Shown piece by piece: positions 1 through 5,425 of a DNA stretch of 24,911 nucleotides. The stretch is from a virus. Each line of letters starts with the position of its first letter. The stretch's first letter is position 1. The notes under the pieces were generated by a model that saw only the letters and a list, made by a program, of their open reading frames with translations, had not been told where the DNA came from and made no database searches. Made by a program: the position numbers and the translations under genes. The stretch covers positions 1 through 24,911 of IMG/VR virus record IMGVR_UViG_3300042564_001249. One strand, 5' to 3'.

Positions 1-29
1 CGATGTAGGTTCAACTCCTACTGTTGTTA
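1..29 (+). tRNA. 3' end of a tRNA (partial, cut by window edge)
   Basis: A perfect T arm is visible: stem GTAGG at 5-9, seven-base loop TTCAACT at 10-16, stem CCTAC at 17-21. It is followed by a seven-base acceptor strand TGTTGTT (22-28) and discriminator A29. CCA is not encoded directly after it. The anticodon lies outside the window, so the amino acid is unknown. It is the first member of the tRNA block that runs to base 994. Confidence 0.75.
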
Positions 30-480
30 AACAAAAGCGAAAGACTGTCCCGGTACGTTGTGAAAGGTGGTTAATGCCACACTCGCAAGAGAATGTGGTC
101 TACGGATGCTCGCAAGGCTGATGTAGTTGTTCGGAAAGATAGCGTAAGGGTTTAGCGACTCTGAACTGCTCGCAAGGCAGACGAAGGATAGAAGGACGAG
201 TAGCAACGTGCGACGAGAGAAACGCCACTCTCCAAAAAAGGCACCACTGGGAGATACAGGATGACCGTAAAAGGCTTCTGTGGATAACGAGAGAACGTGG
301 CTCGCAAGGCTAACGGTAATGCTCAAAGGCTCCTAACGCAAGGCATAATCTCAGCCTATGCAAAAGTTTAAGTTTTAACTAACTTAACTTGTTGAACAGT
401 TTTCGAGTTCCGACCCACTTGGAAGTAGGCGACTACTCCATTTCCGAGACTGTTCAACTAGTTAAGTTTCTACTTTAAAC
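30..480 (+). ncRNA. Candidate large structured non-coding RNA between tRNAs
   Basis: About 450 bases carry no plausible gene on the plus strand but are dense in hairpins. Seen directly: a GNRA-capped hairpin (CCACA 77-81 with TGTGG 94-98, inner CTC-GCAA-GAG 82-91); three exact copies of GCTCGCAAGGC (108-118, 168-178, 300-310) plus related CGCAAG sites at 84 and 337, each able to form a short GCAA-loop hairpin; and a 20-base arm 381-400 pairing with 449-468 with one T-T mismatch. Inside that long stem is AGTAG-GCGA-CTACT (424-437), extended by GG/CC across a bulged A. The base composition is more G-rich than the surrounding genes. Large ornate phage RNAs beside tRNA genes are known (GOLLD and ROOL families), and position and size fit that type; membership is inference. 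Strand is inferred from the flanking tRNAs. Confidence 0.55.
81..344 (+). repeat. Dispersed GCTCGCAAGGC hairpin repeats
   Basis: The 11-mer GCTCGCAAGGC occurs at 108-118, 168-178 and 300-310. CGCAAG cores also occur at 84-89 and 337-342, and a weaker relative GCTCAAAGGC at 321-330. Each exact copy can fold as GC-bulged U-C, loop GCAA, G-GC, a GNRA-type cap. The spacing (60 and 132 bases) is irregular and the flanks differ, so this is a repeated structural element rather than a CRISPR-like array. Confidence 0.6.
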
Positions 481-581: not shown

Positions 582-657
582 TGCGGGGTAGAGAAGCGGC
601 ATCTCGTTTGGCTCATAACCAAAAGATCGTGGGTTCGAGTCCCACCCATCGCAACCA
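582..657 (+). tRNA. tRNA-Met (anticodon CAU)
   Basis: The anticodon arm is perfect: TTTGG, loop CTCATAA (612-618), CCAAA, with anticodon CAT at 614-616. The D stem GAGA/TCTC (591-594 and 602-605) and T arm GTGGG-TTCGAGT-CCCAC are clear, and CCA is encoded at 655-657. The acceptor stem has one G-U pair and one G-A mismatch, and one extra base lies between T and acceptor stems. The first pair is T-A, so the mismatch typical of bacterial initiator tRNA is not seen. A CAU anticodon could also be an Ile tRNA read after lysidine modification. Confidence 0.87.
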
Positions 658-676: not shown

Positions 677-682
677 ATTTAT

Positions 683-815
683 ATTATTTAAAGAAGTGAG
701 ATTTAAAAACATTCTAGTTCTCACTATAGGCGTAAAAAGAAACACATAGTTGTTTGAAGGCAGCTGGGCCCGTTAAAGTTGTACTAGACAAATGCTGATG
801 CCATCTTTAAATAAT
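683..815 (+). ncRNA. Candidate small structured RNA between tRNA genes
   Basis: The interval is closed by a perfect 12-bp helix (683-694 with 804-815) that ends just before tRNA-Leu(CAA). Stacked on it is hairpin AGTGAG/CTCACT (695-700 with 720-725). A second hairpin is AAACA/TGTTT (740-744 with 751-755). A third arm is GGCAGC (759-764) with GCT and GCC (794-796 and 800-802), and within it TTGT/ACAA (779-782 with 788-791) presents loop ACTAG. That loop complements CTAGT (714-718) in the first hairpin loop, so a 5-base loop-loop contact is possible. No open reading frame is plausible here. I do not recognise the family. Strand is inferred from the neighbouring tRNAs. Confidence 0.5.
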
Positions 816-817
816 TT

Positions 818-901
818 GCCCTAGTGGTGTAATGGTAGCCACGGAAGACTCAAAATCTTTTGCCGCAAGGCGTGGGGGTTCAAGTCCCTCCTGGGGCACC
901 A
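818..901 (+). tRNA. tRNA-Leu (anticodon CAA)
   Basis: The acceptor stem GCCCTAG pairs with CTGGGGC through one G-U pair, followed by A and an encoded CCA (899-901). The anticodon arm GAAGA-CTCAAAA-TCTTT puts anticodon CAA at 851-853. The long variable arm GCC-GCAA-GGC (type II) and the T loop TTCAAGT support leucine. It lies nine bases upstream of a second leucine tRNA. Confidence 0.93.
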
Positions 902-910
902 ATTCTTTAT

Positions 911-994
911 GCCCGCTTGGTGAAATTGGTAGCCGCGGCAGACTTAAAATTTGTTTCCTCTGGAGTGCCGGTTCGAGTCCGGCAGCGGGCACCA
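911..994 (+). tRNA. tRNA-Leu (anticodon UAA)
   Basis: The acceptor stem GCCCGCT/AGCGGGC is perfect, with discriminator A and encoded CCA (992-994). The anticodon loop CTTAAAA (943-949) gives anticodon TAA. A long variable arm and T arm GCCGG-TTCGAGT-CCGGC identify a type II leucine tRNA. UAA reads the A/T-rich TTA codon, which is abundant in the phage genes here. Confidence 0.94.
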
Positions 995-1007
995 ATAAAA
1001 AACAATC

Positions 1008-1033
1008 AAAAGGCACCCTAGGGTGCCTTTTCT
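1008..1033 (+). terminator. Intrinsic terminator closing the tRNA block
   Basis: AAAAGGCACCC (1008-1018) and GGGTGCCTTTT (1021-1031) form a perfect 11-bp hairpin around a TA loop, with a T run on the 3' side. It sits 13 bases after the last tRNA and directly before the ligase promoter, so it separates the RNA block from the early operon. It is symmetrical and could work on both strands. Confidence 0.85.
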
Positions 1034-1034
1034 C

Positions 1035-1062
1035 TTGACTAGGACTTGCAAACTGTTATACT
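1035..1062 (+). promoter_or_regulatory. Sigma70-type promoter of the ligase operon
   Basis: TTGACT (1035-1040) and TATACT (1057-1062) are spaced by 16 bases, close to the bacterial housekeeping consensus. The predicted start lies about 15 bases before the ligase ATG, which has a Shine-Dalgarno AGAGGAG. The promoter begins immediately after the terminator. Confidence 0.7.
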
Positions 1063-1084
1063 ATCTGCAATCAGAGGAGATACT

Positions 1085-2410
1085 ATGCGAACACAACCTG
1101 ACTTTATTATTCGTGATCTTGAAAATCACAATAGTCGCCTTGATAAAGAGGCAATTCTTGCTGACGCAGTTAAAGAAGGACTAAACGAGTTTTTTGATGG
1201 CGTTCGTATGGCCCTCGACTCACTAGTTACATTTGGTGTAAAACAGGTGCCGATTAAAGAGAAGGATGAAGGACAAGGGTTGGCTTGGACGGTGTTTTTG
1301 CATCTTGCAAACGACCTTCAGTATCGTAATCTAACTGGTCATGCAGCACGTGATGCAATCAATCTTGCTATGGAGGTTGCTACACAACGTCAGTGGAACG
1401 ATTGGTACCGTCGTATTCTTATTAAGGATCTACGCTGCGGTGTTTCAGAAAAAACTGTTAATAAAGTTTGCAAAAATCATCCGCAATATCAGGTTCCGGT
1501 TTTTGAATGTCAACTTGCACATGATAGTGCAAATCATGAAGACAAAATGAAGGGCAAAAAACAAATCGAAGTCAAGCTCGACGGCGTTCGTGTAATTACT
1601 GTGATCAACGACATTCACGGCAAAAGCATCGAAATGTTTAGCCGCAACGGCAAACAGTTTCATAACTTTGATCACATCATTGAAGAAATTCGTGCTGTGC
1701 TCAAAGACAATCCCACTCCATATCCGCTTGTTCTAGATGGCGAAATTATGAGTGCTACGTTTCAAGATCTTATGAAGCAAGTGCAGCGTAAGTCGAACGT
1801 AAACGCAAAAGATGCAGTGCTAAACTTGTTTGATATTATTCCACTTGGTTGTTTCAAGAATAAGAAGTGGGACAAGCCACAGAACTTCCGTAGTGAACTT
1901 GTTAATCATTGGGTAGAAGACCATGCAGAGACGCTACAGCACGTTACAGCACTAGGTTGGGAAACTGTAGATCTAGACACAGCAGAAGGCTATCGACGCT
2001 TTGTAGAGCTTAATAAGACGGCTGTAGACGGTGGGTATGAGGGCGTTATGATCAAGGACGTGGATGCACCCTATGAATGTAAACGTAGCCATAGTTGGCT
2101 TAAAGCAAAACCATTTATTGAAGTAACATTGGAGATTGTAGGAGTTGAAGAAGGAACAGGACGAAATGAAGGAAGACTCGGGGCTATGGTATGCTCTGGG
2201 CAAGATGACGGGAAGGATATTAGGGTCAACGTTGGCAGTGGTTTTACAGATGATCAACGATCCCAATTTTGGAATGCTCGGGATGCTGCTATTGGTAATC
2301 TTGTTGAAGTTCGGGCAGATGCTGTAACACAGAATCAAGACGGCACTTACAGCCTACGATTTCCACGTTTTAAAACGTTCCGTGGTTTTGAGAAGGGTGA
2401 AAAACTATGA
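1085..2410 (+). CDS. ATP-dependent DNA ligase (T4 gp30 type)
   Basis: The product (441 residues) would seal nicks during replication and repair through a ligase-AMP intermediate. The nucleotidyltransferase motif I, EVKLDGVRV, puts the AMP-accepting lysine at residue 164, close to K159 of T4 ligase. Further family motifs follow in order: FSRNGKQF, LDGEIM, EGVMIKD and SWLKAKP. The C-terminal third fits the OB-fold domain (EGTGRNEGRLGAM, VGSGF). I chose the ATG at 1085 because AGAGGAG lies just upstream; an in-frame TTG at 1046 falls inside the promoter spacer. Its stop overlaps the next gene by four bases (ATGA), so the two are probably translationally coupled. It leads an operon of five genes. 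Family call is firm; orthology with gp30 is inferred from phage type and size. Confidence 0.96.
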   Translation: MRTQPDFIIRDLENHNSRLDKEAILADAVKEGLNEFFDGVRMALDSLVTFGVKQVPIKEKDEGQGLAWTVFLHLANDLQYRNLTGHAARDAINLAMEVATQRQWNDWYRRILIKDLRCGVSEKTVNKVCKNHPQYQVPVFECQLAHDSANHEDKMKGKKQIEVKLDGVRVITVINDIHGKSIEMFSRNGKQFHNFDHIIEEIRAVLKDNPTPYPLVLDGEIMSATFQDLMKQVQRKSNVNAKDAVLNLFDIIPLGCFKNKKWDKPQNFRSELVNHWVEDHAETLQHVTALGWETVDLDTAEGYRRFVELNKTAVDGGYEGVMIKDVDAPYECKRSHSWLKAKPFIEVTLEIVGVEEGTGRNEGRLGAMVCSGQDDGKDIRVNVGSGFTDDQRSQFWNARDAAIGNLVEVRADAVTQNQDGTYSLRFPRFKTFRGFEKGEKL

Positions 2411-2682: not shown

Positions 2683-2941
2683 ACTTGGAAAAGTAATGGG
2701 ACACCTCGGACATGCTCCTCCTGAAGCAGAGCCTTGGGCTATTCTTAAAACGCTGGGGATTGATGTAGCACTAGCAAAACGAGCAGTAAAAAAACTCTAT
2801 TTCGAACCTGTGACTGTAGTAGATAAGCTTGGCAGATCTGTGCCAAGCTACGAAACATATCACAATGTGTTTTTTATACCAAACGATACTAAGCACGGTA
2901 GTTTATTTGCTATGAAATACGGAACAAAGATTAATGGATGA
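2672..2941 (+). CDS. Small protein of unknown function
   Basis: The reading frame gives 89 residues from ATG 2672, which overlaps the previous gene by 11 bases. A second ATG at 2696, preceded by a GGAA, would give an 81-residue product starting MGHLGHAPPE; the choice is uncertain. The sequence is mixed helix and strand with no transmembrane segment and no recognisable motif. It ends with an 8-base overlap onto the next gene, continuing the tightly packed early operon behind the ligase. Confidence 0.65.
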   Translation: MIYKLGKVMGHLGHAPPEAEPWAILKTLGIDVALAKRAVKKLYFEPVTVVDKLGRSVPSYETYHNVFFIPNDTKHGSLFAMKYGTKING

Positions 2942-3314
2942 CGAACTAGAAAATTTTAAACAAAAATATCGTGCTCACGTTCAACCTGGACATAGACGCT
3001 ATGCTGTACCTAAACGTATAAGCATGGATCCGTTATCACCTGACAAAGATATGCCTTGGGATCTTAACTTTGAATACGAAAGCAGTGTTCAAATTGATAT
3101 GAGCAAGCGTGACTTCGAAACACTAATCGGTATGGAAGCTTATTTTGAGTCTCAGCTAAAAGATCGTGACTGGGAGAATTTTAGTGGATACGCTAAATCG
3201 ATCGTAGATAAGTATGAACGTGAAGTTCGTATTCGAAACAACAATCCCGCGGCAAAACTTGCGTATGAAAAATATCAAACAGTATTACGCATGGTAGACA
3301 GTTACTATGATTGA
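2934..3314 (+). CDS. Hypothetical protein, early operon
   Basis: This 126-residue product is not recognised. It is strongly charged and probably soluble: an N-terminal basic segment (KQKYRAHVQPGHRRYAVPKR), a central acidic stretch and a helical C-terminal half rich in Tyr, Glu and Arg (YAKSIVDKYEREVRIRNNN). The gene overlaps both neighbours by eight bases, which supports a real, translationally coupled gene. The motif MPWDLNFEYE here and MPWLNYLLEH in the next product share MPW, but I see no wider similarity. Confidence 0.72.
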   Translation: MDDELENFKQKYRAHVQPGHRRYAVPKRISMDPLSPDKDMPWDLNFEYESSVQIDMSKRDFETLIGMEAYFESQLKDRDWENFSGYAKSIVDKYEREVRIRNNNPAAKLAYEKYQTVLRMVDSYYD

Positions 3315-3540
3315 AGTTCCTTTTCAAATAGACAGGCACGATGCTGAAAGTTCTAACCCTTTGAGCACCTGGATTCAGCGTAACTGGGATATGCCTTGGC
3401 TAAACTATTTGCTAGAACACACTGACGGTATTGAAACAGAACATTTCTATGATCCACCTACTGATATGTACCGTGTGAATTTTAAGTTTAAATTGGACCC
3501 AAAAAAAGAAACATATTATCGGCTTAAATACGGTGCTTGA
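3307..3540 (+). CDS. Hypothetical small acidic protein, early operon
   Basis: This 77-residue product ends the ligase operon. It is rich in aromatic and acidic residues (STWIQRNWDMPWLNYLLEHTDG) and ends in a probable beta segment (YRVNFKFKLDPKKETYYRL). No family is recognised. Its start overlaps the preceding stop by eight bases. The promoter of the following gene overlaps its last codon and stop (TTGACA at 3537-3542). Confidence 0.7.
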   Translation: MIEVPFQIDRHDAESSNPLSTWIQRNWDMPWLNYLLEHTDGIETEHFYDPPTDMYRVNFKFKLDPKKETYYRLKYGA

Positions 3541-3565
3541 CAATCACAGTGATATGTCGTATAGT
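3537..3565 (+). promoter_or_regulatory. Near-consensus sigma70 promoter
   Basis: TTGACA (3537-3542), a 17-base spacer and TATAGT (3560-3565) form a near-consensus housekeeping promoter. The gene start follows 27 bases after the -10 box with Shine-Dalgarno AGAGGA at 3581-3586. This should give strong early expression by unmodified host RNA polymerase. Confidence 0.82.
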
Positions 3566-3591
3566 TAATTGTAAAAACACAGAGGACCACT

Positions 3592-4782
3592 ATGGCTCGC
3601 ACCGCAGTACTTAAACCTAAAAAAAAAGCAACCGTTCGGGCAACTCGACGTCTTAGCGGATTTTCTCTTGCCCCGACTGATAGCTTTTGGAAAGCAAAAC
3701 ATTTTGTGCATTACGAAATTGAAAGCAGAGAATGGGCCAGCAAGATTACAGATTATGTAAAGCGGTTTCTTCCTAAAACTGATGCTGCACACATTAATCG
3801 TTTGCCTGATTGGAAAATATCTAACTACAGCCATTGGGCTATTACTGCTCATTGGCTACTAAATAACCTCGAACCTCCCGAAGATTATGTAAACGGCTTT
3901 AAGCGATACCTTGATGGCCTTGTTGAAGAAGGCAAAGAACTTGCTAAAAAAGACAAAGTTGCGGAAAAAATTGCAAAGTCTGCGGCACCGGTTCCTACTA
4001 TTCAAGAGCGTATTTCCGAACAAGCCGCAGAAGCAATGGAAGACATTGAAGAATGGCTCGAAGTTTTTGTCAAAGACAAAACTGCGTTTGATCCTAAAGG
4101 ATTTGACTTTACAGCTCACTTTGCTAAGTTTAAAATTTCGCAGGCACACGCTCGTAAAATTATGTCTAACTATCAAAGCGAAATCGAAGAAGCACGTTTA
4201 ATTCAAAACTTGCCTACTCCGCAAAGTATTGCTAAGATCAAAGACGAACGTGAAAAAGACATGGCACAACAGCTACGCGAAGGTTATAGCCATCTCTCTA
4301 AAAAGGATGCAGCGGCATACCTTGCAGCACTAGAGACGTTACAAGGTGCTTGTATGCTAGTTATAGATTCAAGTAAAGCTAATCGCAAGCCTCGTGCTAA
4401 AAAAGCACCTAGCAAAGAAAAAATTGTTGCAGGACTGAAATATAAACTTGTTGACGACAAGTATCAAATTGCAAGTATTAATCCTCTTGAATTGTTACAA
4501 AGCACTGAAATTTGGGTATTTAATACTAAAACTAGAAAACTTGGAAAATACGTAGCGGCTGCCGATGCTTCTATTATGACTGTCAAAGGTAATACACTTA
4601 TTGGGTATGATGAAACAAAGTCGGTACAGAAAACCTTGCGTAAACCCGAAGAAACATTAAAAGAATTCAAGTCTGCAGGAAAAATCAAGTTAAGAAAGTT
4701 TTTAGAGGAAATTAATACCACTGAAACTGTTCTTAGTGGAAGATTTAACACAGATATAGTCATTCTTAAAGCTGCTCATTAA
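3592..4782 (+). CDS. Basic, helical protein of unknown function
   Basis: This 396-residue product is not recognised. It begins with a basic, lysine/arginine-rich tail ([14 protein letters not shown]), followed by a long helical region. A second basic linker lies near residues 260-277 ([16 protein letters not shown]) and separates it from a C-terminal, more beta-rich domain of about 120 residues ([24 protein letters not shown]). The layout of basic tails around helical and beta domains would suit nucleic-acid binding, but this is inference. It is a single-gene unit with its own near-consensus promoter, separate from the ligase operon and followed by the equally strong clpP promoter, which suggests high early expression. 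Confidence 0.85.
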
Positions 4783-4837: not shown

Positions 4838-5425
4838 ATGCCCTTAGTACCTATTGTAATTGAACAGGAATCTCGTGGAGAGAGGTCTTATGATATTTAC
4901 AGCAGACTTTTAAAAGACAGGATTGTTATGTTAAATGGTCCTGTTGAAGATAATGGAGCAAACTTAATTGTTGCTCAGATGCTTTTCTTAGAATCTCAAG
5001 ACTCTGAAAAACCTATTAAATTTTATATTAATAGTCCTGGTGGCGTTATTACTGCTGGCATGAGTATTTACGATACTATGCAGTTCATTAAACCTGAAGT
5101 ACACACTATTGTAATGGGCCAAGCGTGTAGTATGGGATCTTTCCTTGCACAAGCCGGTGCAAAAGGCAAACGCTATCTGTTGCCTAATGCAAGACACATG
5201 ATTCACCAGCCGAGCGGCGGTGCAAGAGGTATGGCTAGCGACATTGAAATTTCTTATCGAGAAATTATGTACTGGAAAAAGCGTTTAACAGAACTGTATG
5301 TTCATCATAACAGTGCAGAAAAAACGTACGAAGATTTCGAGCGTGACATGGATCGAGACACTTTCTTGAGTGCTAAAGAAGCAGTAGAATATGGTCTTGC
5401 TGATTCAATAATCACTACTCGTTAA
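4838..5425 (+). CDS. clpP: ClpP-type ATP-dependent protease proteolytic subunit
   Basis: This 195-residue product is a serine peptidase of family S14, full-length for bacterial ClpP. The catalytic triad is intact: Ser98 in GQACSMGSF, His123 in HMIHQPSGG and Asp174 in MDRDTFLSA. The oxyanion-side motif INSPGG and the handle-region helix are present. Bacterial ClpP forms a tetradecamer and needs an AAA+ partner such as ClpX or ClpA for protein substrates; none is encoded in the window, so it would have to use the host unfoldase or act on peptides. It has a perfect early promoter. An AT-rich 7-bp hairpin (5420-5426 with 5434-5440) overlaps its stop but lacks a T tail. Viral ClpP homologues are known in marine myoviruses; what they cleave is not evident from sequence. 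Confidence 0.96.

Follow-up and report, generated by a model that had tools for sequence, protein, structure and literature searches.

Few natural RNAs are known to form cages; GOLLD RNAs are among them. The env-38 GOLLD RNA (RF02032), which is 833 nt in length, was resolved by cryo-EM as a 14-mer cage (PMC12286853). In tRNA clusters of Mycobacterium, GOLLD is located between tRNA genes and contains an inactive-looking tRNA, described as a pseudo-tRNA gene, and its measured expression is low (PMC6582537). The GOLLD RNA of a Lactobacillus brevis prophage, cited in PMC7567579, accumulated in lytic growth yet was dispensable for phage production. ROOL, which is also a large phage RNA found near tRNAs, features GNRA loops and forms an RNA cage.

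We analysed the left end of a 24,911-base virus record, referred to in its full length as the window. The RNA encoded there shares with env-38 the helices of the 3′ domain, a length of approximately 840 nt in relatives, a position among clustered phage tRNA genes, a linker that contains a tRNA and an invariant GC at the presumed L21a loop. In contrast to env-38, the acceptor stem of the linker tRNA is eroded in this lineage and its anticodons change quickly; the 3′ end is followed by two additional RNA modules, and the 5′ domain lies outside the window. As in Mycobacterium, GOLLD is flanked by tRNA genes and carries an inactive-looking tRNA, but the RNA analysed here belongs to a phage. ROOL differs in both sequence and fold.

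Organization of the locus

The window derives from a tailed phage, the genes of which include a DNA ligase, a ClpP-like protease, a tail fibre and a clamp loader. At the left end, the 3′ end of a tRNA is followed by the GOLLD block (30-357), a long hairpin, an element at 467-578, a tRNA-Met gene, a spacer, two tRNA-Leu genes, a terminator-like hairpin and the promoter-like site of the ligase gene (Table 1). The presumed transcript encompassing GOLLD and the tRNAs probably ends at the terminator-like hairpin. The initial annotation had described the block as lying between tRNA genes. This holds for the right side; on the left, only the 3′ end of a tRNA is present, and this sequence is part of the GOLLD linker.

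Table 1. Features of the GOLLD locus and members of the putative tRNA-headed helix family. Positions refer to the window unless a contig is named.
Feature	Position	Strand	Remarks
3′ end of the tRNA-like insert in the GOLLD linker	1-29	+	T arm 5-21, acceptor 3′ strand 22-28
GOLLD RNA, conserved 3′ domain	36-357	+	Rfam match itself 1-357; RF02032, 150.7 bits; covariation in 20 homologues
3′ strand of the 9-bp linker-closing helix	45-53	+	CTGTCCCGG; 5′ strand CTGGGACAG off the window, in the twin contig
GCTCGCAAGGC hairpin motif, copy 1	108-118	+	
GOLLD hairpin with pair 148-161	147-162	+	invariant GC 155-156 in the loop
GCTCGCAAGGC hairpin motif, copy 2	168-178	+	
GCTCGCAAGGC hairpin motif, copy 3	300-310	+	inside a GOLLD insertion near the 3′ end
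Long hairpin	376-468	+	near-invariant internal loop (TTTTCGAGTTCCGACCCA / TTCCGAGA), apical GNRA-type hairpin
tRNA-headed helix	467-578	+	~21-bp helix, D arm, stub anticodon arm, 7-bp variable arm, T arm TTCGATT
tRNA-Met (CAT)	582-657	+	ARAGORN and Rfam
Conserved spacer, tRNA-Met to tRNA-Leu	680-816	+	stem GTGAGA../..TCTCAC vs GTAAGG../..CCTTAC; alignment A7; z -2.2
tRNA-Leu (CAA)	818-901	+	
tRNA-Leu (TAA)	911-994	+	
Terminator-like hairpin	1008-1031	.	
Promoter-like site, ligase gene	1035-1062		
tRNA-headed helix, L281	1501-1611	-	
tRNA-headed helix, L284	1501-1610		
tRNA-headed helix, L285	1501-1610		
tRNA-headed helix, L286	1501-1616	-	
tRNA-headed helix, L287	1501-1616	-	
tRNA-headed helix, L289	1501-1616		

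Bases 1-357 matched the Rfam GOLLD model with an E value of 6e-42 (model positions 63-416), the 5′ side of the match being cut by the left edge of the window. The match is barely above the gathering score of RF02032, which is 150, and falls below it (142.4) in a search with the whole record. The score is low because the left (5′) part of the RNA is missing beyond the edge. A twin contig (L143/L023), which extends beyond the left edge and shares 99.2% identity across the first 1,100 bases, attains 193.8 bits, and phage relatives score from 151 to 234 bits. In the twin, the GOLLD RNA runs on intact to the left, and part of the 5′ domain is present. Three relatives (L060, L064 and L063, in the last at 2924-3769) contain the full RNA; its length, counted from where the 5′ domain begins through to the 3′ end, is 844-846 nt. 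As in RF02032, the RNA is encoded in a phage, is close to tRNAs and has a tRNA in the linker.

The block had been suggested to be possibly a GOLLD- or ROOL-type RNA, which could be a new member or a new class. GOLLD is the type found; since GOLLD is a known class, the window RNA is an additional member of a previously known kind, and the suggestion of a new class is not supported for 30-357. Taking identity, fold and modular layout jointly, it is highly probable that a GOLLD RNA residing in a tailed-phage tRNA cluster contributes its 3′ domain to this block. GOLLD is also present in jumbo phages, on the very long contigs G009 (382 kb), G026 (519 kb) and G065 (344 kb). A divergent GOLLD group was considered and discarded: among 47 contigs carrying a GOLLD 3′-end pattern, 24 have no GOLLD match and a few more match weakly. 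The contigs inspected from this group, among them the sets in which long stretches of the surroundings are identical, resemble conserved coding sequence, and eight of those inspected have no Rfam match.

The spacer between tRNA-Met and tRNA-Leu is 93% conserved among the window and contigs L060, L029, L039 and L065, and the stem around AAACATTCTAG features two compensatory changes. Rfam gives no match for the spacer, and nearly all of the 67 hits of a pattern scan with it are chance matches. BLAST comparison of the three elements downstream of GOLLD with isolate phages returned none. The tRNA clusters of these phages also contain tRNAs with a CTA anticodon, called Pyl by ARAGORN (L030 1697-1773, L033 4667-4743, L048 3194-3270 and L157 1007-1081), which are possible amber suppressors. 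Permuted tmRNA genes (RF04321, RF01849) are found just downstream of GOLLD in two roseophages, in L140 (2022-2438; phage DSS3_MAL1) and L142 (2105-2491; DSS3P8); in the DSS3P8 record, neither the permuted tmRNA nor GOLLD is annotated. Relatives available in culture include Ruegeria phage DSS3P8 and Phaeobacter phage MD18.

A separate hairpin module

The near-perfect long-range stem enclosing a GCGA hairpin, which the initial annotation had assigned to the giant RNA, is a real structure. The predicted fold of 376-468 has an energy of -34.4 kcal/mol (z -5.6); 382-400 pairs with 449-467, and the GCGA-capped hairpin occupies approximately 420-440. In five distinct sequences, 8 of the 26 pairs change on both sides, with a covariation score of 0.238, compared with at most 0.046 when partners are slid.

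In the window, the hairpin starts only about 20 nt after GOLLD, and the two therefore seemed one structure. Pattern scans found it beside GOLLD only, in 9 contigs; an additional match in L156 was rejected, as it lies in a GC-rich context and the L156 record contains no GOLLD. A model of the hairpin (R2) added G009, where the hairpin is located 634 nt downstream of GOLLD and a protein-coding stretch lies in between. The hairpin is therefore a separate module and not GOLLD, and the assignment of the stem to the giant RNA does not stand. The coding stretch in G009 (L149, ~800 to 1480, minus strand) looks methyltransferase-like by eye.

A tRNA-headed helix

The element at 467-578, which lies between the long stem and tRNA-Met, had gone unmentioned in the initial annotation. 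Free folding predicts a 21-bp helix topped by a tRNA-like head with five arms (-44.8 kcal/mol, z -6.5). At the place where an anticodon arm is expected, there is a stub with a 4-bp stem and a loop of 4-6 nt across members (5 nt in the window), which differs from the 7-nt loop of a tRNA. ARAGORN made no call at 467-578 in the window, and at E values up to 1 the Rfam tRNA model made none in any of the seven members, the window included. Class-II tRNAs, including tRNA-Sec, also feature a long variable arm, the T loop TTCGATT, a D loop with GG and a multi-arm head. In contrast to these tRNAs, the element has the stub in place of the anticodon arm, and its acceptor extends into the helix of approximately 21 bp.

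A model (R1) built from four members retrieved three more distinct ones, at E values from 1e-11 to 1e-14. In the seven members, both partners vary in 28 of the 40 pairs, with a covariation score of 0.658, compared with at most 0.111 for slid partners; the alignment was fitted to the model and leans to it, although the model was built without the helices of the added members. A scan anchored on the T arm, which gave one match in 233 kb of control sequence, revealed more heads on similar helices, some of which have two T arms (L060 3446-3583, L305 and L310); of the 16 array matches, a few represent ordinary tRNAs or fall within a permuted tmRNA. Structured heads on such helices include L060 3446-3583, L305 120-250 and 250-402, L310 140-268 (minus strand), L158 3712-3847 and L157 2055-2167. 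Several of these have in common TTCTGTTTTCACAT../..TGAAAACAGAA and a small internal loop approximately 8 bp below the head.

Known RNAs were compared with the element. A tmRNA reading was discarded, as there is no Rfam tmRNA match; the real permuted tmRNAs sit in roseophages. The species 1 RNA of phage T4 (rnaC) is small, lies in a phage tRNA cluster and has a T arm preceded by a long arm. It differs in predicted architecture, and R1 returned nothing from the tRNA region of T4 at E values up to 10; T4 species 1 and species 2 RNAs were thus rejected as homologues, and species 1 is the nearest analogue. A weak R1 match in DSS3P8 (5048-5138) is a simple palindromic GCCATG repeat and was also discarded. 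The tRNA-like pattern was not found in bacterial genomes, and no description of an RNA of this type was found in the literature searched; the element is apparently undescribed so far.

The location of the module relative to GOLLD varies: it is 3′ in the window, 5′ in L060 and L061 (directly so in L060), and 21 kb away in G026. In G094 (123 kb), a tRNA-headed helix is present without a GOLLD match, although the records may be fragments. This distribution bears on whether the long hairpin and the tRNA-headed helix are 3′ extensions of the GOLLD molecule, making one larger RNA. Both modules occur within 20-110 nt after GOLLD in the window, and every true match of the hairpin in the pattern scans adjoins GOLLD. 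However, a single larger RNA is improbable given the varied location of the tRNA-headed helix, the coding stretch separating GOLLD from the hairpin in G009 by approximately 630 nt, and the many GOLLDs that lack both modules.

The reading that we moderately favour is that these phage tRNA clusters host an undescribed family of non-decoding tRNA-like RNAs, in which a conserved helix of approximately 21 bp carries a tRNA-shaped head that has a T arm and, in many cases, a stub where the anticodon arm would be. Such RNAs would have been shuffled between the flanks of GOLLD and other tRNA genes, and may serve as structured signals for processing or mimic tRNAs to divert host enzymes, beside a GOLLD cage with a non-decoding linker tRNA.

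Conservation of the GOLLD fold

Covariation was analysed in an alignment of 20 homologous 3′ domains, using base pairs taken from outside, from the Rfam model, and not derived from these sequences. Standard pairs are formed in 87.6% of the cells, and both sides change in 58 of the 75 pairs, so that compensatory changes, which had been proposed as a check on the initial annotation, are abundant in homologues. The covariation score is 0.561, compared with at most 0.082 when partners are slid. Nearly all GOLLD helices are retained in the sequence of the window itself.

Outside the linker tRNA, the window and the twin contig differ at only two sites in 1,067 nt, position 148 (G for C) and position 161 (C for G). 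The two sites are partners in one GOLLD base pair, which is G-C in the window and C-G in the twin. A self-complementary GC in the loop of this hairpin (G116 and C117 of alignment A1) is invariant in the 20 sequences. Judged by position, the loop is probably the self-kissing loop L21a (bridge B8).

A decayed, functionless GOLLD copy might show a score barely over the gathering score, as seen here, and the tRNA 3′ end at the window edge could resemble truncation. This reading is very unlikely: the twin carries the RNA onward intact to the left, nearly all helices are kept, and the only differences between the two contigs outside the linker make up one compensatory pair.

By size, tRNA neighbourhood and GNRA loops, a ROOL RNA would fit equally well. 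However, among 4227 Rfam families searched at E values up to 1, ROOL has no match, and GOLLD and the partial tRNA at the edge alone match 1-357, so that almost no credence is left for ROOL or for a new giant RNA unrelated to either family. The sequence motifs that had drawn attention to the block are present. The window contains exactly three copies of the 11-mer GCTCGCAAGGC, all on the plus strand and none on the minus strand, and the two weaker GNRA copies are CACTCGCAAGAG near 80 and CTAACGCAAGG near 335.

No plausible plus-strand gene had been recognized, and there is indeed no plus-strand ORF of 60 amino acids in 30-480. The sole ORF of the region is a 99-residue frame with a TTG start on the minus strand (27-326), and a protein-coding origin of the block can be practically dismissed, as this frame, although open in the window, is frameshifted or stopped in 14 of the 20 homologues, where changes follow the base pairs.

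The linker and its tRNA-like insert

Bases 1-29 give a partial match to the Rfam tRNA model (model positions 43-71, 18.4 bits, E 0.87), and the full tRNA-like sequence is called in the twin contig and in relatives. The insert is enclosed by the linker-closing helix, which joins the 5′ and 3′ domains. The 9-mers flanking the linker pair at 9/9 positions in 17 of 19 homologues, with both strands changing; versions found among homologues include CTGAGGTAG/CTACCTCGG, CCGAGCCAG/CTGGCTCGG and CTGGAGCAG/CTGCTCCGG. Because the 9-mers are complementary and covary, the linker tRNA belongs to the same RNA as GOLLD.

Linker tRNAs differ from ordinary tRNAs. Among those called, 13 of 16 have 5-6 acceptor pairs, whereas 123 of the 136 other tRNAs at the same loci have at least 7 (Mann-Whitney p 2e-13, an optimistic value since the tRNAs are related). 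Anticodon loops of abnormal length are found in three linker tRNAs (L148, L149 and L222), in which ARAGORN reports 4- or 2-base anticodons, and linker tRNAs called as tRNA-Ser have no long variable arm. L027 is a counter-example, as its linker tRNA has a full acceptor stem and CCA. No linker tRNA was found in DSS3P8 or L086.

In our reading, the linker tRNA has become part of the cage RNA. As the insert has lost much of the acceptor stem, it is likelier to be a part of the cage that is structural or contacts cargo than a working tRNA. Whether the linker tRNA has a non-decoding role in this sense is evenly balanced.

Proposed assembly and implications

GOLLD, the hairpin, the tRNA-like module and the tRNAs may be transcribed as one RNA ending near 1031. 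Processing of the tRNAs, together with cleavage at the long hairpins, would set the ends of an RNA of approximately 845 nt. Homology to env-38 (PMC12286853) suggests that 14 copies of this RNA would subsequently form a hollow cage held together by loop-loop and A-minor contacts, and that the linker with its tRNA-like insert would be located inside the cage. We consider cage formation by this RNA likely, because of the homology to env-38 and of the conserved 3′ domain, which includes the invariant GC in the presumed L21a loop. A strong role for the RNA is not assured, since the GOLLD of L. brevis is dispensable.

Near-identical natural variants that differ by one swapped base pair and by the linker tRNA offer a handle on GOLLD. 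Linker tRNAs are available at every stage of decay, from an intact one with CCA (L027) to none (DSS3P8), and would allow the importance of the caged tRNA to be tested. The more surprising part of the locus is the tRNA-headed helix rather than GOLLD itself. If confirmed as RNAs, the tRNA-headed helices would constitute a new family of phage tRNA mimics.
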